Shown piece by piece: positions 1-42,938 of a DNA stretch of 64,000 nt. The stretch is from Candidatus Electronema sp. GTDB taxonomy: Bacteria; Desulfobacterota; Desulfobulbia; Desulfobulbales; Desulfobulbaceae. The DNA lies in the NCBI GenBank assembly GCA_026645415.1, contig JAPEVH010000007.1:1-64000 (forward strand), in the 5' to 3' direction. The position numbers and the translations under genes were made by a program. Position 1 is the first letter of the stretch, and the number at the start of each line of letters is the position of its first letter. Under the pieces are notes generated by a model. The model was not told the origin of the DNA and did not search any database. It saw only the letters and a list, made by a program, of their open reading frames with translations.

Positions 1-2580
1 AGGCGGCTGCCCAAAGCGATAGGGCCAGCGGCACTGCGGCATGGTGCCGCTGGCGGCAGAACTGTCGGCAATCTGGTTGAGCGGTTCAACGCAGGGGTTG
101 TCAACTTTTATTCCGGCGGTCAGGAAACCACCTCTCCCTCCCTGCCACCCCCTTTATCCGGCAAATTCGACCTTTCCCGCCTGCCCAAGACCGATTCCAA
201 GCTCTTTGGCAGGGAGGATGAGCTTGCGCTGATTGATCAAGCCTGGCAGGAGGACGGCACCAACGTCCTTGTGCTCATTGCGATGGGCGGCGCGGGCAAG
301 ACCGCCCTGATGCAGAAGTGGATAAACGATGAGCGGTATTGCGGCGCGGCTGCAGGTTACGCCTACTCGTTTTATTCGCAAGGCTCCAGCGAGGACAAGC
401 AGGCATCGGCGGCGGAATTCTTTGACAGAGCACTTGCTTTTTTCGGTTATGACGGCAAGCCGATTCCTTCAGAGCATGAGCGGGGCGTGAAACTGGCCGA
501 ATTGATTTGCCGCCAGCGCACGCTGCTGGTGCTCGACGGCTTGGAGCCGCTCCAGCATCCTGTGGCCGGGGTGATGAACGGTGCGCTGAAGGACAAGGGC
601 CTCCTCAGTCTGTGCAAGCAGCTTGCCGCGAACGGCAACGGCCTGCTGCTGATTTCCTCCCGCCAGCCGGTGACGGAGCTGGACGGCAGGCCGCATCTGC
701 TGCCGCACGAGCTGAAGCCGCTCAACGCCGCAGCGGGCATTGCCTTGTTCCGGGCCGCTGCAATCATTGGCACGGACAAGGAGCTATGCGCTGCGGTAGA
801 GGCGTACAACGGCCACGCCCTGTCCCTCAGCCTGCTGGCCAAGTACCTGCGCGAATACGAGAAGGGCGACATCCGGCAGCAGGACACGCTGCGCTGCCTG
901 ACCGAGTTCCCGGAGGCCACCCGCGACAGCCTCCACGCCTTCAAGGTGATGGCCGCCTACGAGCGGCAGCTCTCCGGCAGCGCGGATTTGCAGATCCTTT
1001 TCTGCCTCGGCCTGTTCGACCGCCCGGCTGCGGCGGAGGTCATGTCTTTTTTGCGGAAGGAGGGCATCATCGGCCTGCCCAGCGACGAGCGGGTGTACCG
1101 CGCCGCCTGCGGACGGCTGCGCCAGCAAAGCCTGCTGAACACCGCCCGCCCGGAGCAGCCGCAGAACCTTGACACCCACCCGCTGGTGCGCCAGTATTTC
1201 GGCAAGCGGCTGGCCGAGCTGCACCCGGAGAGCTGGCGGCAGGCGCACGTCCGGCTGTACGAGCACTTCAAGGCCGCAGCCAAGGAGCTGCCCGACACCT
1301 TGGAGGAGATGGAGCCGTTGTTTGCGGCGGTGCGGCATGGCTGCGCAGCGGGGATGCACCAAAAGGTGCTGGATGAGGTGTACTGGCCGAGGATACGGCG
1401 GTCAGGAGACAACTATCTTTGCAACAAACTTGGCGCATTTGCTGCCGACTTGGCCGTTGTGGCTCATTTCTTTGCCATGCCGTGGAGTATGCCAGCCGCA
1501 GGATTGACTGATCATAGAAAGGCAGTGGTGCTCAACTGGGCTGCATTCCGTCTGTGTGCCCTTGGACGGCTGACCGAGGCCGCAGAGCCGATGCAGGCCA
1601 GCGTTGATATGGCGATCAAACAGGAAAAATGGCAGAATGCAGCGAAGGCAGCCAGCAGCCTCAGCGAATTATATCTGACCAGCGGCGATCTTGCGCAGGC
1701 AGTTGCCGCCGGACGGCAGAGCGTGGAGCTTGCAGATAAGAGCGGAGACACTTTTCAGCGTATGAGCAAGCGCACGACGCTCGCGGATGCCCTGCATCAG
1801 GCCGGTGAACTGGCTGAGAGCCATGCCTTGTTCGCTGAGGCTGAGAAGATACAGCAGGAACTACAGCCGAAATATGACCGACTCTATTCGTTGCCGGGAT
1901 TTCGGTATTGCGACCTGCTGCTGGCTGGCGGCGCATGGCCGGAAGTGCGCGAGCGGGCGGAGAAGACGCTGCAATTGGCGAAACAGAAGTTTGGTTTATT
2001 GTCTAACGCCTTAGACAAACTCTCTCTGGGCCGCGCCGCTGTGCAAGAAGCAATTGTGCAGGCTGGCCTGCCTGTCATTTCCGGCCTTGCACCGGACTTA
2101 GCCTGCGTTCAACCTATCGGTGGATACGTTGATCCTATCCGCAGAGCAGTTGAACGTATCAGCAGATATGTTAAACGTATTAGCGGAGCCGTCGAACCTA
2201 TCAGCGGATACGCTGAACCTATCCGCCGAGCCGTTGAATGGCTCGATCAGGCGGTTGATGGCCTGCGTGAAGCGGGTCAAGAGGATGATTTGCCGCGTGG
2301 CCTGCTCTCACGTGCCGCGTGCAGCCGCTGGGCAGCGCATTTTTCGGCTGCGGAACGGGATTTGCAGGAATGCGAAGACATCGCCCGGCGCGGCGGTATG
2401 CAGCTGCACCTGATTGACTGCCATCTGGAGGCCGCCCGGCTGGCTCTTGCCAGCGGCAAAGACGTTCTGGGCCACACCGCCGCCGAGCATCTGGCCGCCG
2501 CACAGGATAGCATTGCCAAAACCGGCTATAAACGGCGGCTGGTGGAGGTGGAGCAGATCTCGGCGGTGCTTCATCGGTAG
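1..2580 (+). CDS. STAND-type NTPase with C-terminal TPR-like region (5' end outside window)
   Basis: The frame is open from the first base of the window, so the true start and any N-terminal effector domain lie upstream; 859 residues are visible. A linker rich in Ser and Pro leads to LFGREDELALID, then a Walker A motif (GGAGKT, nt 286-303) and a Walker B-like stretch LLVLDGLEPL (nt 526-555). This is the arrangement of NB-ARC/STAND ATPases, which couple a sensor to an effector. Beyond about nt 1500 the protein is helical and Ala/Leu/Glu-rich with TPR-like periodicity (GRLTEAAEPMQAS, SGDLAQAVAAGRQSVELA). At nt 2099-2245 a 21-bp tandem repeat is inserted in frame, as 7-residue units of the PISGYAE type. 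The gene is markedly GC-rich compared with everything to its right, which suggests acquisition. STAND proteins often act in defence or signalling, but no effector is visible, so the role is unknown. Confidence 0.75.
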   Translation, partial: RRLPKAIGPAALRHGAAGGRTVGNLVERFNAGVVNFYSGGQETTSPSLPPPLSGKFDLSRLPKTDSKLFGREDELALIDQAWQEDGTNVLVLIAMGGAGKTALMQKWINDERYCGAAAGYAYSFYSQGSSEDKQASAAEFFDRALAFFGYDGKPIPSEHERGVKLAELICRQRTLLVLDGLEPLQHPVAGVMNGALKDKGLLSLCKQLAANGNGLLLISSRQPVTELDGRPHLLPHELKPLNAAAGIALFRAAAIIGTDKELCAAVEAYNGHALSLSLLAKYLREYEKGDIRQQDTLRCLTEFPEATRDSLHAFKVMAAYERQLSGSADLQILFCLGLFDRPAAAEVMSFLRKEGIIGLPSDERVYRAACGRLRQQSLLNTARPEQPQNLDTHPLVRQYFGKRLAELHPESWRQAHVRLYEHFKAAAKELPDTLEEMEPLFAAVRHGCAAGMHQKVLDEVYWPRIRRSGDNYLCNKLGAFAADLAVVAHFFAMPWSMPAAGLTDHRKAVVLNWAAFRLCALGRLTEAAEPMQASVDMAIKQEKWQNAAKAASSLSELYLTSGDLAQAVAAGRQSVELADKSGDTFQRMSKRTTLADALHQAGELAESHALFAEAEKIQQELQPKYDRLYSLPGFRYCDLLLAGGAWPEVRERAEKTLQLAKQKFGLLSNALDKLSLGRAAVQEAIVQAGLPVISGLAPDLACVQPIGGYVDPIRRAVERISRYVKRISGAVEPISGYAEPIRRAVEWLDQAVDGLREAGQEDDLPRGLLSRAACSRWAAHFSAAERDLQECEDIARRGGMQLHLIDCHLEAARLALASGKDVLGHTAAEHLAAAQDSIAKTGYKRRLVEVEQISAVLHR
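2099..2245. repeat. 21-bp tandem repeat inside the NTPase gene (about 7 units)
   Basis: Units start near 2099, 2120, 2141, 2162, 2183, 2204 and 2225. They follow the pattern GCrGAnnnGTTGAACsTATC with scattered substitutions. The 21-bp period keeps the reading frame and gives seven-residue units such as PIRRAVE and RISRYVK. The minus strand is also open across the array. Confidence 0.85.
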
Positions 2581-2623
2581 GGCTGAACGATTGTTCGCCC
2601 CTACACACCCGCAGAACCGCTCC

Positions 2624-2686
2624 GCAGATCGGTTGAACGGGTCACGAGATAGGAATAACGTATCTCCAGATCGGTTCAACTGATAA
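2624..2686. repeat. Second cluster of the same 21-bp repeat (3 units), intergenic
   Basis: Units at 2624-2644, 2645-2665 and 2666-2686 match the intragenic repeat in period and consensus (CAGATCGGTTGAAC; CGAGATAGGAATAACGTATC; CAGATCGGTTCAAC). They lie 44 bp past the stop of the NTPase gene, in the gap before the tRNA. The rest of this gap (2581-2733) shows no gene. Confidence 0.75.
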
Positions 2687-2733
2687 AACAACCCGAAATA
2701 CTAGGTAATCACTGCGGAAAGACTGATTTTACG

Positions 2734-2810
2734 TGGTGCACCCGGAGGGATTTGAACCCCCGACCCTCGGATTCGAAGTCCGATGCTCTATCCAGCTGAG
2801 CTACGAGTGC
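2734..2810 (-). tRNA. tRNA-Arg (anticodon TCG)
   Basis: The reverse strand folds as a cloverleaf. The acceptor pairs GCACTCG with CGGGTGC, followed by discriminator A and an encoded CCA (2734-2736). The D arm AGCTCAGCTGGATAGAGC, the anticodon loop CTTCGAA and the T loop GGTTCAAATCC are all recognisable. Anticodon TCG reads CGA. Confidence 0.95.
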
Positions 2811-2932
2811 ATTGGGATGGGATAAAACGAATATAGCGTATTCCAGCGAGACTTGAAAGACTTTTTTCTCGCTGAACAAGGATAAACGCGCTTCCTGCCA
2901 GCGCAGCAGGAAGCTGTCAAGGACTTGCAGGC

Positions 2933-3934
2933 TTATTCTTTTGCTGTGGCAAAAATATAACCTTCTTGGCGATACCAGTCGCCAGTGCGCTTCAAGCCTT
3001 CATCTAAATTGATTTTCGGCTGATACCCCAGCTCGCGCTTGGCCTTGCTGATGTCAAAGGCCCGGTTTTGCCGGTACCAGTCCACCCGACGCGGGAAGAT
3101 CGGCGGGGTGATCTTAAAAGGTTTGCAGGCTTTCTCAAAGATGTGCCCAACAACAACCAATGGCCAGATCGGATAATGCGGAATTTTCACCTCCACACCA
3201 AGGGCTTGAGCCGTCTTACGCACTAAAGTCTCTATGCTAACATATTCTTCGTCCGCAATCAAATAGGCTTGGCCGCGTCCCTTGCCTGGTTCCATAGCCA
3301 GCATAAAGGCATCAATCAAATTGTCGATATACAGGGGATGATAAAAGGTTTTGCCGCTACCAAACATCGGAAAAACACCTTTGCTCACCCGCTTGAAAAT
3401 CATCTGGAAACGTTCTGGGTCACCGGGGCCGTAAATTGCGGTTGGCCGGATGATTACCGTGTCCATCCCCTTGGCACAATACGCATTGACAAGCGGCTCG
3501 GCATCGTACTTGGTCTTCTGATAATAGTCAGCAGGATGAATAGGCGCGTTTTCGTCCGCTGGCGGGTTATCCACATTGCCATGCACCCCGCAGGTAGAGC
3601 AATAAATAAACTTCTTCACCTTATGAGCAAAGGCAGATTCTAAAACAATGCGTGTGCCGCCGACGTTCACTTCATCGTAATAGCTGTTCGGCACATCCAA
3701 TTCCCGGAAGGCCGCAGCCAGATGATGAACCACCTCCACGCCTGCCATGCAACGCTCTACTACCTCGCGGTCGGTGACTGTGCCGATGACCACCTTTGCC
3801 CCCCAAGAGCGGATCTCCTCTGTCTTTAATCCCTCTTGATAATCCAAGCTAACCACTTCGTGGCCTGTATCAATCAACCGTTTGACTAAGGCTTTGCCAG
3901 TGAAACCGGTACCGCCTGTGACAAGCACTTTCAT
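2933..3934 (-). CDS. NAD(P)-dependent epimerase/dehydratase (extended SDR)
   Basis: A 333-residue extended short-chain dehydrogenase. The N-terminal Rossmann signature is VTGGTGFTG (residues 5-13). The catalytic YxxxK appears as YQKTK in the segment PADYYQKTKYDAE, preceded by the conserved CSTCGVHG strand. RPTAIYGPGD is the substrate-loop signature of sugar epimerases and 3-beta-hydroxysteroid/dihydroflavonol-type reductases. The C-terminal part has a hydrophobic patch (PLVVVGHIFEKACK) as in the 3-beta-HSD-like branch. The substrate cannot be read from sequence; a nucleotide sugar or a sterol/hopanoid-like lipid are both possible. It lies 53 bp downstream of the cytochrome gene on the same strand and may be co-transcribed. 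Confidence 0.85.
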   Translation of the reverse strand: MKVLVTGGTGFTGKALVKRLIDTGHEVVSLDYQEGLKTEEIRSWGAKVVIGTVTDREVVERCMAGVEVVHHLAAAFRELDVPNSYYDEVNVGGTRIVLESAFAHKVKKFIYCSTCGVHGNVDNPPADENAPIHPADYYQKTKYDAEPLVNAYCAKGMDTVIIRPTAIYGPGDPERFQMIFKRVSKGVFPMFGSGKTFYHPLYIDNLIDAFMLAMEPGKGRGQAYLIADEEYVSIETLVRKTAQALGVEVKIPHYPIWPLVVVGHIFEKACKPFKITPPIFPRRVDWYRQNRAFDISKAKRELGYQPKINLDEGLKRTGDWYRQEGYIFATAKE

Positions 3935-3987: not shown

Positions 3988-5436
3988 CTATTGCTGGACT
4001 GGTTCCGTATAAGACGGGTCTTGTTCTTTCAAGAGATGGAGAAAACGTTGCTCATAAAACAGCCCTGCTGGGCCAGTGGTATGTGGTGTATAGGGTAAAA
4101 GGCCATCATCATTGCCAACAATATTGTCCAGATTGGCGATTATTGCACCATTTTCATCCACAGCAGAAAGATGAAGATCAAGAATGGGGCGGAATACCTT
4201 GATGACACCATCCTTGTCTTGTCGGATCAGCATATTTTCCCAGCGACGCAGGTTATAACCTTGCAGCCAAATCCCTGGCTTGCTCTTGCCAGTGAGCGCA
4301 TCAGACATAACTGGCCCGTCTTCGTCTCCATTGAGAAAACTTTCTGCCTCAGAACTAGACTGCACGGCCAGCGATTCCCATAGCTCGGTGTCATCAGAAT
4401 AACTGAGCAGCAAATGCGTACTTTGATCGTTAAAACTCCACTGCGCATGACAGACCTGACACGCCACCTTGTCGCCATACTGCGCATGAGCAGGATGCTT
4501 GAGCAAAGGAATAGGATGCTCCTTGCCGTCCTGCCGACCAGTAAGAATAAGCTGGCCATTTTCAGAGCGCACATTTTTTAGCGGCACTGTGCTCGACTTT
4601 GGATTGTGGCAGTTAACGCAGGTAATTGCTGCCTGTTTGCCAGATAGCTCTGCGCCGCTGTGACAATCTATACAGGTCAAGCCGCGTTGCCGATGAATAT
4701 CTTGCACCAGATCGTGCTGCTCCACACCATAAGGTCGGAGAAAGGGCCTCGGTGTAGCCTGCGGCGAACGAAAGTCGCGGCCATAGTCATGCTCGTACAT
4801 GCCAGCAAAATCGCTGCCTACGTAATTGCCATAATGACAGCTCAGGCACTGCCGCTCGCTAGGAATAATAAAGGCATGGCTTTCGAGTTTCCCCTCAGTT
4901 TTGCGCAGATGACAGGCAGCGCAGCCAGTGCCTCGCTGCACATAGGGGTACTTGTCACCTGATGTATAGACATGACAGCGGAGACACCGGCGGCGGAGTA
5001 CATCATCAACAAGTTGCTCTTTATTTTTAGGCGGTCCGCTGTGCTCTGGAATCGTAGTGAGGCCAGCAAGAGGTTCAAGACCAAAGTGCCTGCGGATCAA
5101 ATTAACTTCCTTCTGCAAAGTGAAGTGCTTTGCCTCGGCGCAGGTCTCCACTTGTTGCGCATGGCACGTACCACAGACCTTTGCCATATTTGCAGGAGCA
5201 GCAGGTTGTGCGGTCATACCCGTATGAGCAAGCGTTTTTTCACGAGCACTGTTGTCGCCTTGGTGACAAGCTGTGCAAGCAACGTTATGGCTGCTGTCTA
5301 CGTGCCGCACATCGGCATGGCAACTTCGACAACCGGGTGGATGAGCAGAATTGCTTGTTCTTGTAGTATCTTCTTTACTACAGGCTGCCAAACAACATAT
5401 TAGCAAACCAGCAAGGAGCAGGAAAATAGCTTTCAT
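3988..5436 (-). CDS. Nonahaem c-type cytochrome lipoprotein
   Basis: A 482-residue exported protein with a lipoprotein signal; the lipobox LAAC places the lipidated Cys at residue 19. Nine CXXCH motifs are present in order: CRSCH, CTACH, CGTCH, CLRCH, CAACH, CLSCH, CIDCH, CVNCH and CQVCH. All lie in the first roughly 340 residues. The C-terminal 140 residues (from STHLLLSYSDDTELWE) have no haem motif and look like a separate cap or partner-binding domain. Several distal histidines (HVDSSH, HPAHAQYG) could be axial ligands. It is expected to be a periplasmic electron carrier anchored to a membrane. No quinol oxidase or porin partner is adjacent, so its electron donor and acceptor are unknown. 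Confidence 0.9.
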   Translation of the reverse strand: MKAIFLLLAGLLICCLAACSKEDTTRTSNSAHPPGCRSCHADVRHVDSSHNVACTACHQGDNSAREKTLAHTGMTAQPAAPANMAKVCGTCHAQQVETCAEAKHFTLQKEVNLIRRHFGLEPLAGLTTIPEHSGPPKNKEQLVDDVLRRRCLRCHVYTSGDKYPYVQRGTGCAACHLRKTEGKLESHAFIIPSERQCLSCHYGNYVGSDFAGMYEHDYGRDFRSPQATPRPFLRPYGVEQHDLVQDIHRQRGLTCIDCHSGAELSGKQAAITCVNCHNPKSSTVPLKNVRSENGQLILTGRQDGKEHPIPLLKHPAHAQYGDKVACQVCHAQWSFNDQSTHLLLSYSDDTELWESLAVQSSSEAESFLNGDEDGPVMSDALTGKSKPGIWLQGYNLRRWENMLIRQDKDGVIKVFRPILDLHLSAVDENGAIIANLDNIVGNDDGLLPYTPHTTGPAGLFYEQRFLHLLKEQDPSYTEPVQQ

Positions 5437-5517: not shown

Positions 5518-5593
<76 letters not shown>

Positions 5594-5957
5594 ATGATGT
5601 TTTTTTCCCTTCCACAACTTGCTAGTTGTCAAGATTAGTGCCCACACAGCGGTGGTAACTCAAATCTGTTGAATCGGCAGAGGACTCTTCCTTCAATAAG
5701 AGATTATAATTGGCTTCCGCCAATTTGAGCCACTGTCAAAAAATACAATTTAAATAATTTTCTCCATAGAAAGATTCTTTTTAAAATTGACTTTTTGCTA
5801 AAAAGAATACAATATATGATATCTTTTTGCTAAAAGGTAATAGGCATGATACCTTAGCTTAAGAAAAAATGAAAGGAATGAGGTGAAGATGAACAAAAGG
5901 ACTTAGCTAAAGATGACAATTATTATCAATTAACTATTGCAAGGAAAGGAGGATGTT
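5594..5957. other. AT-rich intergenic region with repeated hairpin motif
   Basis: No gene is visible. A perfect hairpin AATTGGC-TTCC-GCCAATT lies at 5708-5725 without a T-run. Further on, CTTTTTGCTAAAAAG (5791-5805) and CTTTTTGCTAAAAG (5823-5836) are near-identical short inverted repeats 32 bp apart. The first overlaps a promoter-like TTGACT (5787) and TACAAT (5808). Confidence 0.6.
5787..5813 (+). promoter_or_regulatory. Putative promoter of the Trp-rich protein gene
   Basis: TTGACT at 5787-5792 and TACAAT at 5808-5813, with a short 15-bp spacer containing the inverted repeat CTTTTTGCTAAAAAG. Almost the same string occurs before sat (43119-43146). The leader to the ATG at 5958 would be about 140 nt. 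Confidence 0.4.
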
Positions 5958-6707
5958 ATGAAGTTTTCTGTGCTTGTTCTTACTATCTGTATGGTATTGC
6001 TTACGTCTCAGCAATCTCGTGCTGATTATGTATCAGACTGGACTGTTGTTGGGCAGGAATATCAACTAGCTGGCTTGTATCAAGGTACTCTACAGCTATC
6101 AATGGATGCAGCAGAAGCAAGGGGTGATCATAAGACTTTCAAAGAGACAAGAAAACTTTTTAAAAAATTTCATAAAGATGTTTTCAAGTCTCTCGAACGA
6201 TCTTATATGAAAGCACTAAAAGGCAATGCTGTCTGGATACCAACCCGGTATTGGAACTGGAATCCATGGGTATCAGTCCAAACTTGGCAGACATGGACAC
6301 CTAGCTCAAATTGGAATCCATGGGTAGCAACTCCACCCACAGGCTGGAATCCAGGGACACCATGGAATTTCTGGGTACAAAATCCAACAGTACAAAATCC
6401 AACGGTACCAAATTATTATATTTACAACTATAATAACTATAACTGGAACTGGACTCCTAGCTATGGTACCGAATGTACGAGTGATCCAGGGCCATGCTTG
6501 AAGTGCATTAACGGATTTATTGTACCAGATGATGGTGAGAATCCGAGAAAAAGATGTTATCAGTGTGTAGGCGGGCAAGCAGTTCCTGCCAATGGACATC
6601 CATGCAACGATTATAATCCTTGCACAACAAATGATCGCTGTAATCAAGGAAGATGTAAGGGTACTAAGATAAGTTATACTTCCCCTAACAACCCGATTTG
6701 CATGTAG
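5958..6707 (+). CDS. Secreted Trp/Tyr/Asn-rich, Cys-rich protein of unknown function
   Basis: The ATG at 5958 is chosen because AGGAGG sits just upstream and it opens a clean Sec signal (cleavage near SRA-DYV); 249 residues result. After a helical segment of about 75 residues comes a low-complexity zone with 13 tryptophans in roughly 80 residues, built from NWNPW, TWQTW, GWNPG and NWNW pieces and ending in a Tyr/Asn run. The C-terminal third has ten cysteines, including PCNDYNPCTTNDRC-type spacing like the small disulfide repeats of extracellular proteins in related phyla. I do not recognise the whole protein. The layout suggests a surface or periplasmic structural or carbohydrate-binding protein. 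It stands alone between a putative promoter and a terminator. Confidence 0.75.
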   Translation: MKFSVLVLTICMVLLTSQQSRADYVSDWTVVGQEYQLAGLYQGTLQLSMDAAEARGDHKTFKETRKLFKKFHKDVFKSLERSYMKALKGNAVWIPTRYWNWNPWVSVQTWQTWTPSSNWNPWVATPPTGWNPGTPWNFWVQNPTVQNPTVPNYYIYNYNNYNWNWTPSYGTECTSDPGPCLKCINGFIVPDDGENPRKRCYQCVGGQAVPANGHPCNDYNPCTTNDRCNQGRCKGTKISYTSPNNPICM

Positions 6708-6752
6708 AGAATGCAGCGGGGTTAAACTACAGACTGCGTAGTTTCCATGTAG

Positions 6753-6792
6753 CAGAGAAGTAGAGACGAGTTCATCTGCTTCTCTGTTTTTT
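6753..6792 (+). terminator. Intrinsic terminator after the Trp-rich protein gene
   Basis: Stem CAGAGAAG (6753-6760) pairs with CTTCTCTG (6779-6786), followed directly by TTTTTT. Confidence 0.8.
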
Positions 6793-6817: not shown

Positions 6818-7555
6818 ATGCGGCGTTTTTTTTATGAACCAGCCCAAGAAGCTGCTGGATATATTCTGATTAAGGGTGCAGAAGCACATCATATCAGAAC
6901 TGTGTTGCGATTACGGCTCGGCGAAAAGGCAGAATTACTTGATGGTGTAGGCGGTGTAGTCTATAGCCGGATTGATCAGATTAATTCGGACAGCGTATCT
7001 TTCCGAATCCTCAGTCGCCGCCAAGAGCCAGAAAACTGTAGGCCGCTAACCTTGGTGATGGCTCTGCTCAAAGGCAAAAAAATGGATATGATTGTCCAGA
7101 AGGCAACTGAGCTAGGTGTTCACAGATTTGTTCCAGTCATTACCCATTATTGCGAAGCGCAAAGTCGAGATAGCCAGATGCTTCCCCGCTGGCAACGAAT
7201 CATGCTAGAAGCCTGCAAACAGTGTGGACGGCCTTGGCTGATGCAAATCAATGAGCCAGCATCTCTACACCAGCTTAACATTCCAGCAGAAAGCCTAAAG
7301 GTTATGCCATGGGAAAAGGAGACAGCCTGTTCTTTTTCCACTCTTAATATTGAAACTGAAACGAGACAGCCTGCACTATTGTTGATTGGACCAGAAGGCG
7401 GCTTTCATTCTGAAGAAGTCGAATATGCGAGGGGTTGCGGTTTCAAGACAGTTTCACTTGGCCCTAGAATTTTACGAGCAGAAACAGCTGCCTTGACTGC
7501 TACGGTACTGATCCAACATTGCTTGGGATCTCTTTCTTATATGTCTGAATTTTGA
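6818..7555 (+). CDS. rsmE: 16S rRNA (uracil-1498-N3)-methyltransferase
   Basis: A 245-residue SPOUT-family methyltransferase of the usual RsmE length. The N-terminal PUA-like domain starts MRRFFYEP and contains AEAHHIRTVLRLRLGE. The SAM-binding trefoil-knot motifs are plain: KATELGVHRFVPV in the middle, LLIGPEGGFHSEEVEYA, and the C-terminal SLGPRILRAETAALTA. It methylates U1498 of 16S rRNA after 30S assembly. It is followed 4 bp later by def on the same strand, in a run that continues with bioA and a PilZ gene. Confidence 0.95.
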   Translation: MRRFFYEPAQEAAGYILIKGAEAHHIRTVLRLRLGEKAELLDGVGGVVYSRIDQINSDSVSFRILSRRQEPENCRPLTLVMALLKGKKMDMIVQKATELGVHRFVPVITHYCEAQSRDSQMLPRWQRIMLEACKQCGRPWLMQINEPASLHQLNIPAESLKVMPWEKETACSFSTLNIETETRQPALLLIGPEGGFHSEEVEYARGCGFKTVSLGPRILRAETAALTATVLIQHCLGSLSYMSEF

Positions 7556-34166: not shown

Positions 34167-34748
34167 ATGATCAGAATATTAAAAAAATACACAAGAGATA
34201 GATCAGGTTTTTCTTTTGCAGAATTGATGGTAGTTATCGCCTTAATTGGAATTTTATCAGCTATAGCTCTTCCAAGCTTCTTACGTGGCTTGCCAGAAAA
34301 ACGCTTGAAGAATGCAGCCAGAAATCTTTATGCGGATATGCAGCGCGCGAGGATGCTGGCAGTGCAACAAAACAGATCTATTCCTGTTCGATTTAATCTT
34401 TCTGGCAATTTTTATTATTTTGATGAGAGTAATAAAACAGACCCAGGATATGAAAAATGGGATAACGATGAATTTAGGAGAGATTTATCAGAGGCTGGTG
34501 CTGTGAGCTTTGGATTTGGAAAAGCCACAAAGAACTGGGACAACGACCCTCTGCCAACCTCACCTGCCCCTGATGAGACTGCCTCTCCTCTTAATGATAG
34601 AATTACATTTGGTTCTACTGGGACAGCCAGCTCTCGATCAGTTTTTCTGCAAAATGAAAATAAAAATGTATGCTATGCTATAACCGTAACCAATTATGGA
34701 TTCGTAAACATACGAATGTTTAACGGAACTGTCTGGGACAAAGATTAA
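34167..34748 (+). CDS. fimT: Minor pilin, FimT/GspH-like
   Basis: A 193-residue prepilin whose leader ends DRSG; the mature N terminus FSFAELMVVIALIGILSAIALPSF has Glu5. The conserved block RNLYADMQRARMLAVQQNRSIPVRF is the GspH/FimT signature. It is first in the operon fimT-pilW-pilV-pilX-pilY1. Such pilins form the pilus tip initiation complex with PilY1. Confidence 0.85.
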   Translation: MIRILKKYTRDRSGFSFAELMVVIALIGILSAIALPSFLRGLPEKRLKNAARNLYADMQRARMLAVQQNRSIPVRFNLSGNFYYFDESNKTDPGYEKWDNDEFRRDLSEAGAVSFGFGKATKNWDNDPLPTSPAPDETASPLNDRITFGSTGTASSRSVFLQNENKNVCYAITVTNYGFVNIRMFNGTVWDKD

Positions 34749-36632: not shown

Positions 36633-39600
36633 ATGAAAAAAATAGTTTATGCAGCAGTCTTATCCTGTTTTACCGGGGCGATAGTGCTTCCGGTAGCAGG
36701 ATTTGCCGCTAACGTATGTAGTGATGGTGTGGGTATTCCGCCGTTCCTTTCCTCCGGTGCTAAACCCAACCTGCTGATGGTTTTAGACAACTCCGGTTCT
36801 ATGCTGGATGCAGCTTACAGTACAGAAAGCTCTTTTTGCTTTGATGATAACTATATTACCGATAAACCCTATGCTGGCTATTTTAAAAATGACCAGTGGT
36901 ATGAATGGGATGCTGGTGATTTTACACCGTGGGTGAGCGGTAAGGGCTACACTATAGGCAATCGCGTTTATGTCCAAGGTGTTCTCTGGGAGGCATTAGG
37001 TACCGGAACGTCCAATGGCACTTCGCCCATTGATGACAGAGGGTTAGCGTGGCAGCGTGTTTTTACTATAGGAAAGTGGAAAAATGCCACTACTTATACC
37101 GCAAGTACGTTTGTCTGGTCTGGCCCGCAGCTTTACTACACCGCAGGCGGTGGCACCAGTAATGATTCCGATGCAAGCAATGGTCTCAGCTTAGAAGGTG
37201 ACACTGATATTAAAGACTGGAAAGCAGTGGATTCAACATGGCTAAAGGGTAAATCTTATAAAGCCAAGGATATTGTAACATATAGAGGCATTCTATATGA
37301 AGCCACCAACAACGCCACATCTGACGGCACTGGTGTTTATGATGACACGAAAGTAACTTGGAAGCCGCTTGATGAGGGTTCTTTTGTTGCGGTAAGCAGT
37401 GCTACAGCTTTGTCCGATTGTTCCTCAGCTACAGGAGCGACCGACAAGTTTACTCAAGCTGACCTTTGTATCAGTCTTAATAAGAGTTCAACTCCAGCAC
37501 AAGTAGTTACTTTTGCCGCAAGAGGAAATTTGCTTAATTGGGCAACGGCCTCCAAGTTTGATGTGGAGAAGGGAATTCTTACTGGTGGTAAGTATGATTA
37601 CAAAGATCAGATTTTGATCGGTGAGCACCGAGGTTGCGCTGGTTCAAGAATGGTGAAGCAGGTTCCTGTAACTGATGCCTCCTCTGTAACCAAATACTTA
37701 AGCCTTGGTGTGCGTGCTTCTCGATATAATGATCAACCGCTTTATGAAGACCGAATTGATAGTACTGATGATACTGGGCGGCTAGAGGTCTTAGGAGTCA
37801 CTGATTCGTCTTATTCTTTGTCTACAGACTGTCAGTCAGCAATTGATAAAATTATCAATCATGGCTTAAACGGCTCGCAAAATCAAGTAGAAGCTTGCAT
37901 TATAAGCTTTCCTAACTCTAACTCACAGTTAGTGGACATGCGTCCGACTCTTAACCATAGCCTCCAAGCCTGTTGGCAATCTGCACTTAATAAAGGTCAT
38001 TGGGATACCCTTATTGCTGACTGTTATGCTCTTTATACAGGAGGGAGAAACGGCAGCTTCACTCCAGCACGTCCATATGATCCCTCTGAGTTGCGTCCAG
38101 CCGACGGAGGGCCGTATCTTTGCTATGGCATATATGATTCTGGTGTTGATCCTAATAATAGGGTTGGTTATATGGGCCGTTGTTGGATTCAAGGTGGTGG
38201 CGGTTGGGTAGAAAAATACTGTAATCAGCTCACAACAACAGTAGCAGGTTCGGCCAGCCTTGGTGCTTCCACTTGCTGGGATTATAACAACAAAAGCGTT
38301 CCAACAACAGAGAGTCTATGCCAGCATTACCGAAATAATGGCGGCTTTGTTGAACAATGCACCGTTACCTACAGTAATGGCGATAAAAAAAGCGTGTGTC
38401 CTAACGGAAGCTGGAAAAAAATAGGCAAATGGGATGATGGCTCAGGTTCTTGCGATTATCCGCAAAATCCACAGCAGGTATGTCCTCCTAATACGAGCTG
38501 CGATGGAACATGGGAAGTGACAAGCTGGCCTAATTGGCAACCGAGCGACGGTAACTGTATTTTCGAAGCGATTAAGGATTATTGTGATGCACTAAAAGTG
38601 CCAGAAGTTATCGACCCTTCTGATGTTGCAGGCACAACTGGTGAAACTGGCAATATGCCTGGTTTACTTCGCGATTCCTACTTGATGGCCTTCCTTGGTG
38701 GTGAAGATCCTATTGCAACCATGAAAGCTCATATTTATCAAAAAAATCGGCCGCAAGGTATCGTGCATCGTGTTGCCAGCGATCTGCGGCTTGGTCTAAT
38801 GTCCTTCCGTTATGTAGGTGCAAAAACAGAATGTGCGCTTGCCGCAGCGGATACCACTTCTAAAATCGATAAATACTGTCCTTTAGAAAATAAAGACGGT
38901 GCTGACCTGCTCACTCCGCTGGAAGTAGGAGACTATGTTACAGACGACAACGATCCAACCTATGAAAGTGGTAAACGGCGACATGTAGATGATTTGGCTG
39001 AGGCGATCAACACCACTAGAGGCACATCGTGGACTCCACTCGCTGAGGCGGCGTATGAGGCATTGGGCTATTACACCCAAAATATCAATTTCTGCCTGAA
39101 CAAGGATAGTAATACTGGGGAATGTATGGATTTCCCAACTGCGGATAATCCAACTTATTTTCCAACTATTACAAAGGCTGATCCAGTTCAGTACTGGTGC
39201 CAAGATAATCACATTTTAGTGATTACTGAAGGTGAGTCCACAGCTGATGTTAATGCTGATGTTGCAAACTTCTCTGTTTCTCCACTGCCTAGCTCTGATT
39301 CGCATATTTTGTCATCAGCATGTCCCAGCGGCTGTACTGCGAATGGTAATACAGGGTGCTTACCTAACGATTTAGCTGGAGATGGTGACACAAATCCAGA
39401 CTGCACTACAGACGGTCTCTACAGCAGTGCCTACTTAGACAACATGACTTGGTGGGGACAGCATGTACAGCCACTGTATCAAAATCGATGTGTGAGCGAT
39501 GCATCAGGTCAAATAAAAACAGAGAAGCAAGCTATTTATACCCATGTTGTTACTACTGGTTCCTTAACATCTGGTGGAACTGGAGAATGTAGCCCAGCAA

Positions 39601-42600
39601 CCCTGATGACTAATGCTGCATTTAATGGCGGTACTGATAATTACTATCCTGGTGAGGATCCAGCGCAGTTAGAGAGAAATCTCTATGCAGTTCTTGATGA
39701 CATTCTCAGTCGTTCTTCGGCAGGTTCAGCAGCCTCGGTTATCTCCAGCTCCAGAAGCGGCTCTGGTGCAGTTTATCAGGCGGTGTTCTGGCCAAAATTT
39801 GAAGACGGAGATCCAGATGGAGACGGAGTGAGCAATAAGGTGACGTGGGTTGGAGACGTTCATTCTCTTTTTGTTGATTCCAAGGGATTGATGTACGAGG
39901 ATACAAATCAAGATGGCGAGCTGGATACCACGGCAGATAAACGAGTTGTTTTCTATTTCAGTAATGCGGCGAACAAAACACGTGGTTGCTATAATGTTAC
40001 CGCTATGATCAATAATAATGGTCAATGTCCAGAACCAGCAGCAACAACAAATAATCTCGTTCCTGAATGTACAGATGGAGATGACTGTGTTGAATTGCAG
40101 AACATCAAATATTTATGGTCAGCAAATGAGCGACTAGCAGATAGAGATCTTGCTACCAAAAGCCGTAAGCTGTTTACATGGAACGATTTGAACAATGACG
40201 GTATTGTTGAAGCAACGGATGGTGAATGGTTTCAGCTCAATAATTCAGTGGACTGGACCGCTCTCAATACTGCTGCTGCCACTGCTGGAAACCGTGGGCC
40301 GGTAACTAAGGATTTCCTTAAATCTGAGGATTGGGAAGACTTTGTTGGCTATGACGCGAACAAGACTTCGGCTGAAATGGAAAAGGACGCTCTCAATGCC
40401 TTAGTTCAATGGCTGCAAGGCGTAGACTCGCTCACCGATGAAGTAACAACAGATGACAACGGCAACGGCTGGCTTGATAAAGAGCTAAGATCGAGAAAGT
40501 TCACTTTCAAGACCCAAAATGGCAATTTATCAGGATGGGCAGATAAGACATGGCGGTTGGGTGACATCATTCATTCAACTCCGATGGTCGTAGCTAAACC
40601 AGCAGAATCCTACCATTACATCTATCGTGACCCGACCTATGCTAGTTTTGCGGCACATTGGAGTAATCGCCGCAATATGATTTATTTCGGCGGCAACGAT
40701 GGCATGTTACACGCTGTAAATGGTGGTTTTTATTTTGACAATAAGTTCTGTTGTACAGGTGAAGTTAATGCCGACGGGAGCTGCAAAGTATCACCAACAG
40801 GCGGTTGCGGTACACACCCTGTTTGGAGTTCAGTTGAGCTTGGTGACGAACTGTGGGCCTATATTCCCTACAATCTTCAGCCTCATTTAAAATGTTTGGC
40901 TGATAAATACTATGCCCATAAAGCATACGTTGATCTGAAGCCGCGTATTTTTGATGCGCAGATTTTCAAAAAAGACGATACTGACCATGTTGGTGGATGG
41001 GGTACCATTCTCGTCGGCGCAATGCGTTTTGGTGGTACTCCGGTTTTAGCTTCTGAGTTGAATGGTGATCCAAATGATAAGCGGAAATTTGTCTCTTCCT
41101 ATTTCATTTTGGATATCACTAATCCAGAAAACGAGCCTATACTGCTCGGAGAGATGACGCAACTTGTCGATGCAAATGGCCAAGATGTCTACGCCAATAT
41201 GCAGTACACAACTGCTTCACCAGCGATGATCATTATGCGTGATGGCGGCGCAAATGCCGCTAAATCACAATGGGAACTGGTCTTAGGTAGTGGGCCATCA
41301 GATCTAGGTGGTATCAATGGTAGTAATGTACATGGAAAGCTGGCTATCGTTCCTCTCGACTGGCTTGAAGGTAATGTAACAAGTTGGTCAAATGGTATGC
41401 CAACCGCTGTTAGTTCTGCTGGAAAAAAGGCATTCCGTATTCCAAACGAAGCTCCAAAGACAGGTACAGAGGGAGGTTTCTTTGAGATACCTCTCGGTGA
41501 TGACCCTACAACATCAGCAGTTGATCAGACTACTTCGGGCTTTGTCTCTGACATTATTTCTGTTGATTACAATATCGACCTTTCGGCCGACGATGGTCTT
41601 GGTGCGAGATACCGTACCGATGCTGTCTATTTTGGCACAGTAGATGGTAGTGATTTCACAAAATATCCTGCTGATTATCTTAACGGTGCAGCAGATCAGT
41701 TCTACTGGAAAGGAGGAGGTAGAGTCTTCCGGTTAGTTACTAAAATGCTCAATACTAATGGTGAAGAAATAGCTTCATTACCATCAGAGTGGGCTGATAA
41801 ATGGACTGATAAAGATCCACTTCGTCTCTTGGCAGATGTAAAAATGCCGGTTGTTGGTGCGCCTTCCATTGGCTATGATGATTGGAATTACTGGGTTTAT
41901 GCAGGAACAGGTCGGTTCTATGGGGAGAAAGACAAGACTGATGATGGTTGGTGTACTAAGTCAACCGACACTTCTTGTGCAGACAGAAGTAAAATGGCTA
42001 TTTTTGGCTTTAAAGAACCTCTCATGGATGAGCTTTCTGGCTTTGATAATTGGGCATCTCCGCCATCCAGTTCATTATTCACTTGTGATGACAAAGTAAT
42101 GACTTGGGCGACAATAAACTGGGATATTAACAAAAAGGCTAACAGCCAGCTTCTCCACAATGGAATAGTTGGTGAGCGGGGCCTGATGCAGACAGATAAT
42201 ATCCTTGTACAGCAGGGAGCAGAAGGGTATTTGTACTGTTATCACTGTGTGACAGATCCGACAGATCCGGCAGTATATAGCTGCTCTAAGCTGGCTGATA
42301 CGCAATGCTTCCCCAGTGACATACCAATGGAGACAGTTACTGTCACTGATCCAATTACTGGAATCAGCCAAGATGTTGAGCGATATACCTTTGATAATCT
42401 CAATTGGTATATTTCTGGAGATTACTTCAACCCGAACGCATCTGCTGTATCAGGCTGCACAACTGACAGTAATGGTAAAAAGATTGAAACCGGATTAGAC
42501 GGCTGGTATCGTGCTTTCCACGATGCTCGTGAGCGGAATCTTGGTGCGTCAGCATTGTTAGGTGGTTTGTTGACTTTTACTACGTACCAGCCATATAATG

Positions 42601-42938
42601 ATCGCTGTAAGGCTGAAGGACAGAGTTATCTATATGGTGTTCATTTCCAGACAGGTACAGCTTGGACAGAGAGTGTTTTCGGCACCTTTGATGAGAGCCT
42701 TGTTGATAATAACGGTACAAACCAAACTGTTACGATTGTTAAAGACAAGCTAGGTTTGGGTAGAGGTTTATCAACAACCCCCAGTATGCATGTCGGAAGT
42801 GATAGCGATAATGCAGCTAAAGCATTTATCCAGACAAGTACAGGGGAGATTATCGAGGTAGAACAAAAAAATCTGCCTTATAAAAATACCCGAAGCGGTA
42901 GACAAAATTGGACTGATCGCCGCAGTTCAGACGAGTAA
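36633..42938 (+). CDS. pilY1: PilY1-like pilus tip adhesin with VWA and carbohydrate-binding-like inserts
   Basis: A 2101-residue exported protein; GGAGGGAG precedes the start and the signal peptide ends near GFAA. A VWA-type domain starts with LLMVLDNSGSM, the MIDAS DxSxS at residues 52-56. It is interrupted at about residues 85-255 by three related 45-60-residue modules (YTIGNRVYVQGVLWEA, YTASTFVWSGPQLYYTA, YKAKDIVTYRGILYEA) like the CBM5/12 chitin-binding fold. Many cysteines follow. The C-terminal half is the PilY1 beta-propeller (NRRNMIYFGGNDGMLHAVNGG), with EF-hand-like loops DPDGDGVSN, DTNQDGELD and DLNNDGIVE. It would cap the pilus and mediate calcium-dependent adhesion and retraction control. 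Confidence 0.92.
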   Translation: MKKIVYAAVLSCFTGAIVLPVAGFAANVCSDGVGIPPFLSSGAKPNLLMVLDNSGSMLDAAYSTESSFCFDDNYITDKPYAGYFKNDQWYEWDAGDFTPWVSGKGYTIGNRVYVQGVLWEALGTGTSNGTSPIDDRGLAWQRVFTIGKWKNATTYTASTFVWSGPQLYYTAGGGTSNDSDASNGLSLEGDTDIKDWKAVDSTWLKGKSYKAKDIVTYRGILYEATNNATSDGTGVYDDTKVTWKPLDEGSFVAVSSATALSDCSSATGATDKFTQADLCISLNKSSTPAQVVTFAARGNLLNWATASKFDVEKGILTGGKYDYKDQILIGEHRGCAGSRMVKQVPVTDASSVTKYLSLGVRASRYNDQPLYEDRIDSTDDTGRLEVLGVTDSSYSLSTDCQSAIDKIINHGLNGSQNQVEACIISFPNSNSQLVDMRPTLNHSLQACWQSALNKGHWDTLIADCYALYTGGRNGSFTPARPYDPSELRPADGGPYLCYGIYDSGVDPNNRVGYMGRCWIQGGGGWVEKYCNQLTTTVAGSASLGASTCWDYNNKSVPTTESLCQHYRNNGGFVEQCTVTYSNGDKKSVCPNGSWKKIGKWDDGSGSCDYPQNPQQVCPPNTSCDGTWEVTSWPNWQPSDGNCIFEAIKDYCDALKVPEVIDPSDVAGTTGETGNMPGLLRDSYLMAFLGGEDPIATMKAHIYQKNRPQGIVHRVASDLRLGLMSFRYVGAKTECALAAADTTSKIDKYCPLENKDGADLLTPLEVGDYVTDDNDPTYESGKRRHVDDLAEAINTTRGTSWTPLAEAAYEALGYYTQNINFCLNKDSNTGECMDFPTADNPTYFPTITKADPVQYWCQDNHILVITEGESTADVNADVANFSVSPLPSSDSHILSSACPSGCTANGNTGCLPNDLAGDGDTNPDCTTDGLYSSAYLDNMTWWGQHVQPLYQNRCVSDASGQIKTEKQAIYTHVVTTGSLTSGGTGECSPATLMTNAAFNGGTDNYYPGEDPAQLERNLYAVLDDILSRSSAGSAASVISSSRSGSGAVYQAVFWPKFEDGDPDGDGVSNKVTWVGDVHSLFVDSKGLMYEDTNQDGELDTTADKRVVFYFSNAANKTRGCYNVTAMINNNGQCPEPAATTNNLVPECTDGDDCVELQNIKYLWSANERLADRDLATKSRKLFTWNDLNNDGIVEATDGEWFQLNNSVDWTALNTAAATAGNRGPVTKDFLKSEDWEDFVGYDANKTSAEMEKDALNALVQWLQGVDSLTDEVTTDDNGNGWLDKELRSRKFTFKTQNGNLSGWADKTWRLGDIIHSTPMVVAKPAESYHYIYRDPTYASFAAHWSNRRNMIYFGGNDGMLHAVNGGFYFDNKFCCTGEVNADGSCKVSPTGGCGTHPVWSSVELGDELWAYIPYNLQPHLKCLADKYYAHKAYVDLKPRIFDAQIFKKDDTDHVGGWGTILVGAMRFGGTPVLASELNGDPNDKRKFVSSYFILDITNPENEPILLGEMTQLVDANGQDVYANMQYTTASPAMIIMRDGGANAAKSQWELVLGSGPSDLGGINGSNVHGKLAIVPLDWLEGNVTSWSNGMPTAVSSAGKKAFRIPNEAPKTGTEGGFFEIPLGDDPTTSAVDQTTSGFVSDIISVDYNIDLSADDGLGARYRTDAVYFGTVDGSDFTKYPADYLNGAADQFYWKGGGRVFRLVTKMLNTNGEEIASLPSEWADKWTDKDPLRLLADVKMPVVGAPSIGYDDWNYWVYAGTGRFYGEKDKTDDGWCTKSTDTSCADRSKMAIFGFKEPLMDELSGFDNWASPPSSSLFTCDDKVMTWATINWDINKKANSQLLHNGIVGERGLMQTDNILVQQGAEGYLYCYHCVTDPTDPAVYSCSKLADTQCFPSDIPMETVTVTDPITGISQDVERYTFDNLNWYISGDYFNPNASAVSGCTTDSNGKKIETGLDGWYRAFHDARERNLGASALLGGLLTFTTYQPYNDRCKAEGQSYLYGVHFQTGTAWTESVFGTFDESLVDNNGTNQTVTIVKDKLGLGRGLSTTPSMHVGSDSDNAAKAFIQTSTGEIIEVEQKNLPYKNTRSGRQNWTDRRSSDE

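Follow-up and report, generated by a model that had tools for sequence, protein, structure and literature searches.

What is a tryptophan-crowded, apparently secreted protein with a cysteine-rich end doing in a probable cable bacterium? The question arises from an earlier note on the window (the whole stretch of 64,000 nucleotides analysed here), which reported a gene at 5958-6707 for a Trp-rich protein. The gene is confirmed, with an ATG at 5958, a stop at 6705-6707 and a product of 249 aa, here called P0001 (Table 1). The reading we prefer, and to which we give roughly an even chance, is that P0001 is secreted, stands alone and is specific to its lineage, with its place on the envelope surface or in the extracellular matrix. 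This identity is the most likely one because the C-terminal tail of P0001 recurs, in a distant phylum, in proteins of the envelope and of slime export.

Table 1. Features of the P0001 gene and its product (positions in the window)
Feature	Position	Strand	Basis and remarks
Protein gene P0001, 249 aa	5958..6707	+	Frame read in sequence; tail relatives in same frame
Ribosome-binding site AGGAAAGGAGG	5942..5952	+	Sequence; 5 nt 5' of ATG 5958
Intrinsic terminator hairpin and U run	6751..6788	+	-20.4 kcal/mol, z -3.95
Two TTTTTGCTAAAARG copies, candidate operator	5792-5805 and 5824-5837	+	32 nt apart, three helical turns
Apparent signal peptide, residues 1-23	5958..6026	+	Read by eye; expected cleavage between SRA and DY
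N-terminal helical hairpin domain, residues 24-92, basic	6027..6233	+	Single-sequence fold; composition
Trp/Asn/Pro/Thr/Tyr-rich core, residues 93-170, nearly uncharged	6234..6467	+	Composition count
Tail repeat 1, DPGPCLKCINGFIVPDDGEN	6483..6545	+	Alignments
Tail repeat 2, PRKRCYQCVGGQAVPANG	6546..6599	+	Alignments
C-terminal cap, HPCNDYNPCTTNDRCNQGRCKGTKISYTSPNNPICM	6600..6704	+	Approximate boundary; cap and its position common to E. gigas and Nitrospirota proteins

The gene carries its own expression signals. A longer open reading frame can be opened from a TTG at 5937, and we regard that start as mechanical only because AGGAAAGGAGG sits 5 nt before the ATG. The terminator hairpin stands between the P0001 gene and rsmE, which begins at 6818; a strong ribosome site upstream and a terminator separating the gene from rsmE thus define a one-gene unit. 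The putative operator TTTTTGCTAAAARG has two matches at no more than one mismatch in the window, both upstream of the P0001 gene, where 0.22 would be expected.

The neighbours of the P0001 gene (a tRNA, a multihaem cytochrome and rsmE) are uninformative on matrix or polysaccharide. The cytochrome (3988-5436, minus strand; Cytochrome_C7 and c3_2 matches) adjoins tRNA-Thr(CGT) (5518-5593, plus strand), and since this pairing recurs in most relatives examined, from both probable cable-bacterium genera, the contig is native to the genome. The other side of the tRNA changes between genomes, with transposase-like genes there in two Electrothrix-type genomes, and the P0001 gene therefore lies at a variable junction. 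Integration directed by the tRNA was considered and rejected, no repeat of the tRNA-Thr gene of at least 12 nt being found elsewhere in the window. The RsmE protein of the window is 65-68% identical to that of four congeners, 59% to that of E. gigas and at most 49% to those of five other family genomes compared; for the upstream cytochrome the values are 70-72% among congeners and 57-62% against the E. gigas genus. These values make Ca. Electronema, the sister cable-bacterium genus, the most likely host. The codon usage of the P0001 core and tail has a weak bias and is not clearly native. Elsewhere in the window, a 2101-aa open reading frame (36633-42938, plus strand) matches CBM_5_12 and, below threshold, PilY1; a GspH/N_methyl pilin-like gene (34167-34748) comes before it, and the product is possibly a pilus-tip protein with a carbohydrate-binding module.

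P0001 can be divided into four parts. Its N-terminus (MK, the hydrophobic run FSVLVLTICMVLL, then the cleavage site) reads by eye as a type I signal peptide, suggesting that the protein is exported. Folding the whole protein from its sequence alone gave a confident result in the helical hairpin only, with helices at residues 27-54 and 58-88 and pLDDT up to 90 in the second; the core acquired no confident structure. The 78 residues of that core hold 13 Trp, 14 Asn, 12 Pro, 10 Thr and 7 Tyr (27% aromatic), bearing out the earlier count of thirteen Trp in about 80 residues. Besides two exact NWNPW motifs there are GWNPGTPW, NWNW and the Tyr/Asn run NYYIYNYNNYNWNW. Against a Trp background of 1.3% over the 43 larger open reading frames of the window the binomial p is ~4e-11, a post hoc value uncorrected for the choice of stretch; the second-richest 80-aa stretch in those frames has 7 Trp. 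At the DNA level two copies of a 21-nt repeat that agree at 90% (6255/6309), a weaker third one at 6342 and a 15-nt tandem repeat (6375-6413) suggest growth of the core through local duplication. The tail comprises 79 residues, and the ten Cys said to follow the Tyr/Asn run are exactly ten (residues 173-248), one further Cys lying in the signal peptide. Neither the CXXCH haem motif nor any other known cofactor motif occurs in the P0001 sequence.

Head and core appear to be orphans. Searches with the whole protein covered its own and genus genomes, 74 family, 258 order and 395 phylum genomes, phages, plasmids and viral contigs, together with PDB, Pfam, NCBIfam and PHROGs, and a full-length relative was found in none of them; Pfam, NCBIfam and PHROGs returned no family at cut-off. 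Searching the family genomes with the head alone recovered no homologue, carbohydrate-binding-module (CBM), cell-wall-binding and choline-binding repeat models had no similarity to P0001, and we found no description of such a protein in the literature. Four congeners, of which two are >90% complete, lack the gene, as do eight genomes of the E. gigas genus; these absence calls rest on completeness of 69-97% across the two probable cable-bacterium genera. A fast-diverging core could evade detection, which is not to be expected of the tail. The exact NWNPW codon pattern has 61 matches in 52 of 251 order genomes, and among the 30 of these loci inspected P0001 alone has a Trp-rich core of this type. 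Matches set aside included a large membrane-type frame (L003), a 54-aa frame (L005) and a stretch interrupted by stops (L024).

The statement that no family has this build therefore holds for the head and core and fails for the tail, which belongs to an unnamed module. This module consists of a 19-residue repeat, DPGxCxKCxxGxxVxDD/N, in 0-15 copies, followed by a fixed cap, CxDxxxCTxNDxCxxGxCxGx(4-6)SPxxPxC, which terminates 1-2 residues short of the C-terminus in nearly all members. P0001 has two such repeats, the second without DPG, and the cap in its C-terminal position. Judged by these alignments, its tail is an alignable, unnamed C-terminal module and not anonymous low complexity, and in P0001 it falls outside every Pfam and NCBIfam family. 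Tail profiles found three Ca. Electrothrix gigas proteins (L002, L004 and L029), to which the P0001 tail is ~45% identical, and a 774-aa Nitrospirota protein (L060); identity to a Nitrospirota protein is 47-49%. The homologue search in Desulfobulbales that the earlier note had proposed thus left the head and core as orphans but placed the tail in a second species, the window species and E. gigas being the only holders among 258 genomes. In an even draw of the phylum the module occurred in one of 355 genomes, the host itself, and none was added. A cap-like unit also occurs alone: L096 (829-1917), a secreted-looking E. gigas protein, carries a single CDDGNPNTGPDTCQDGVCTG unit mid-protein.

Four of 295 Nitrospirota genomes have the module. 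Two of the tail proteins there (L060 and L101) have a FecR domain as their N-terminal part and L110 is alike by sequence, the N-terminal part of L099 has no family match, and L100 lay outside the scan. Genes near the Nitrospirota tail proteins encode Wzy_C with TPRs, Poly_export/SLBB, a Wzc-like protein (GNVR + AAA_31), a BBP2_2 beta-barrel or AMIN + Amidase_3. The module in Nitrospirota has envelope and exopolysaccharide surroundings. In the FecR proteins (L060 at 895-3219, L101, L098 and L110) the 19-residue CxxC repeat occurs in as many as 15 near-identical copies, and this unnamed repeat family may deserve a model of its own.

Structure prediction, also called for earlier, gave a fold for the tail and a confident helical hairpin and left the core without a confident fold. 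The AlphaFold tail model, made from an eight-row alignment of the window, L060 and L061 sequences only, has a mean pLDDT of 83.6 and three beta hairpins, and its cysteines probably form disulfides. Comparison of the tail fold with solved and viral structures gave no significant match. A faint likeness to viral fibre shafts and ADAM17 (E above 2) was discarded, and a hit of the tail profile to the TNF receptor (E 0.048) was put down to chance in the Cys pattern.

How might such a protein work at the surface or in the matrix? The signal peptide would export P0001, and the helical hairpin may serve as a head that is folded or oligomerises. The Trp/Asn/Pro/Tyr core, being extended, would present a row of aromatic 'stickers' along polar 'spacers', the aromatics stacking on polysaccharide, on one another or on both. 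The two 19-residue CxxC beta-hairpin repeats and the cap could form a disulfide-locked, protease-resistant end piece, a C-terminal module that would retain P0001 on the surface or in the matrix. Glycan stacking and self-assembly, both proposed in the earlier note, are favoured by the Nitrospirota tail proteins near genes for exopolysaccharide export and peptidoglycan amidases; the role itself, like the surface location and the anchoring by the tail, is something we infer. The tail could also be just a stability module that anchors nothing, and the core could be an inert linker; for head and core there is no homologue that would reveal selection. One could go further and see in the repeat and cap an unnamed surface-attachment or matrix-incorporation domain, common to cable bacteria and Nitrospirota, and in the core a new self-assembling or filament-to-polysaccharide sticker, a speculation to which we attach a distinctly low probability. 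Should the tail prove to be an attachment domain, it would be a marker of surface or matrix proteins for two phyla in which few have been described.

Electron transfer was the third role proposed for the dense aromatics: closely packed Trp, perhaps with Cys, would help to carry current at the surface or in the fibres of the periplasm. In favour of this role are the grouping of the host with Electrothrix-type genomes, the conductivity of cable bacteria and the multihaem cytochrome gene upstream; the proximity of that cytochrome is incidental, because it is kept beside the same tRNA in relatives that lack the P0001 gene. Bands attributed to aromatic residues appear in UV spectra of native filaments and fibre skeletons (PMC10959288), but bands of this kind fit any protein and are hence unspecific. 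Published work leads one to expect that proteins of the conduction fibres are conserved between species and genera of cable bacteria (PMC11976967), and P0001 does not show this conservation. Since a cofactor motif is lacking and 12 related, probable cable-bacterium genomes do not have the gene, electron transfer is disfavoured and, in our estimate, extremely improbable. An unsupported candidate can thus be struck from the list of cable-bacterium conduction proteins. A different function for the cysteines, the binding of Zn, Fe or Ni as knuckles in place of disulfides, seems improbable to us: the CxxC pairs in the modelled beta hairpins do look like zinc knuckles, and the long Nitrospirota array scores with zinc-ribbon-like models, yet exported Cys pairs normally oxidise in the Gram-negative envelope, the Pfam matches of the repeat array are compositional and mostly at or below cut-off, and no PDB fold matches the tail.

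A carbohydrate-binding protein or adhesin directed at an external partner or surface, and not a building block of the matrix, is unlikely. Regularly spaced, solvent-accessible aromatics are a usual basis of glycan stacking, the Nitrospirota tail proteins are located in polysaccharide-export loci, and surface ligands are typically confined to a single species, as this protein is; P0001 nevertheless resembles none of the carbohydrate-binding or choline-binding repeat models, and a folded aromatic platform is absent from the predictions. A small antagonistic or signalling protein with the Cys-rich tail as its active part would suit the size, apparent secretion and cysteine content of P0001, its stand-alone gene at a variable site by a tRNA, and the weak, sub-threshold look-alikes among Cys-rich peptide families. 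Up to 15 tail repeats behind Nitrospirota FecR domains better suit a structural module, however, and with neither an adjacent immunity-like partner gene nor a match to a toxin family we hold this role to be very improbable. The gene might finally be a young orphan without fixed function, expanded locally by slippage and furnished with a borrowed tail. Its restriction to one species, the variable junction, the recent DNA-level repeats in the core and the weak codon bias of core and tail are all in keeping with this origin; a strong ribosome site, a dedicated terminator, a signal peptide that is intact and a tail that is complete down to its 10 Cys speak against it, and we give it little credence. 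For the surface or matrix protein that we prefer, the gain is that the tail is now a definable family with a stated distribution, and that an orphan has become a testable protein of the envelope or matrix.

Comparison with known systems places the tail of P0001, and not its other parts, among relatives. The cap unit NPCTTNDRCNQGRCKG resembles one unit of the Dictyostelium CTDC repeat (PF00526) or of bacterial CDDGxxCTxxDxCxxGxCxG arrays; PF00526 does not match P0001 even up to E 10, and the nearest-looking repeat array, from another member of the phylum, matches it at E 1.8e-14. The CTDC repeat is typical of Dictyostelium extracellular-matrix proteins. Closer to the host, the tail proteins of Ca. 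Electrothrix gigas AU1_5 (L002/L061, L004/L062 and L029) have the Cys repeat in common with P0001, and L002 and L029 also share its C-terminal cap. L004 and L029 are stand-alone genes with signal-peptide-like starts, and L002 has an apparent frameshift near its start that may be a sequencing error or decay. Their N-terminal parts are unrelated to that of P0001 and none has the Trp-rich core, although NW-containing low complexity directly precedes the tail in L029; in L004 the repeats lie near the N-terminus, unlike those of P0001. The same repeat is found in the Nitrospirota FecR-domain proteins L060, L101 and L110 and in L098, which is known as a tail alone, and L060, L098 and L101 bear a P0001-type cap at the extreme C-terminus. 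In Nitrospirota the partner domain of the tail is the FecR family (PF04773), which has no match in P0001 and takes the place of its helical head and Trp core. The Nitrospirota FecR-tail proteins are secreted-looking, as P0001 is, and they extend the two repeats of P0001 to as many as 15, in loci for exopolysaccharide export or amidases.
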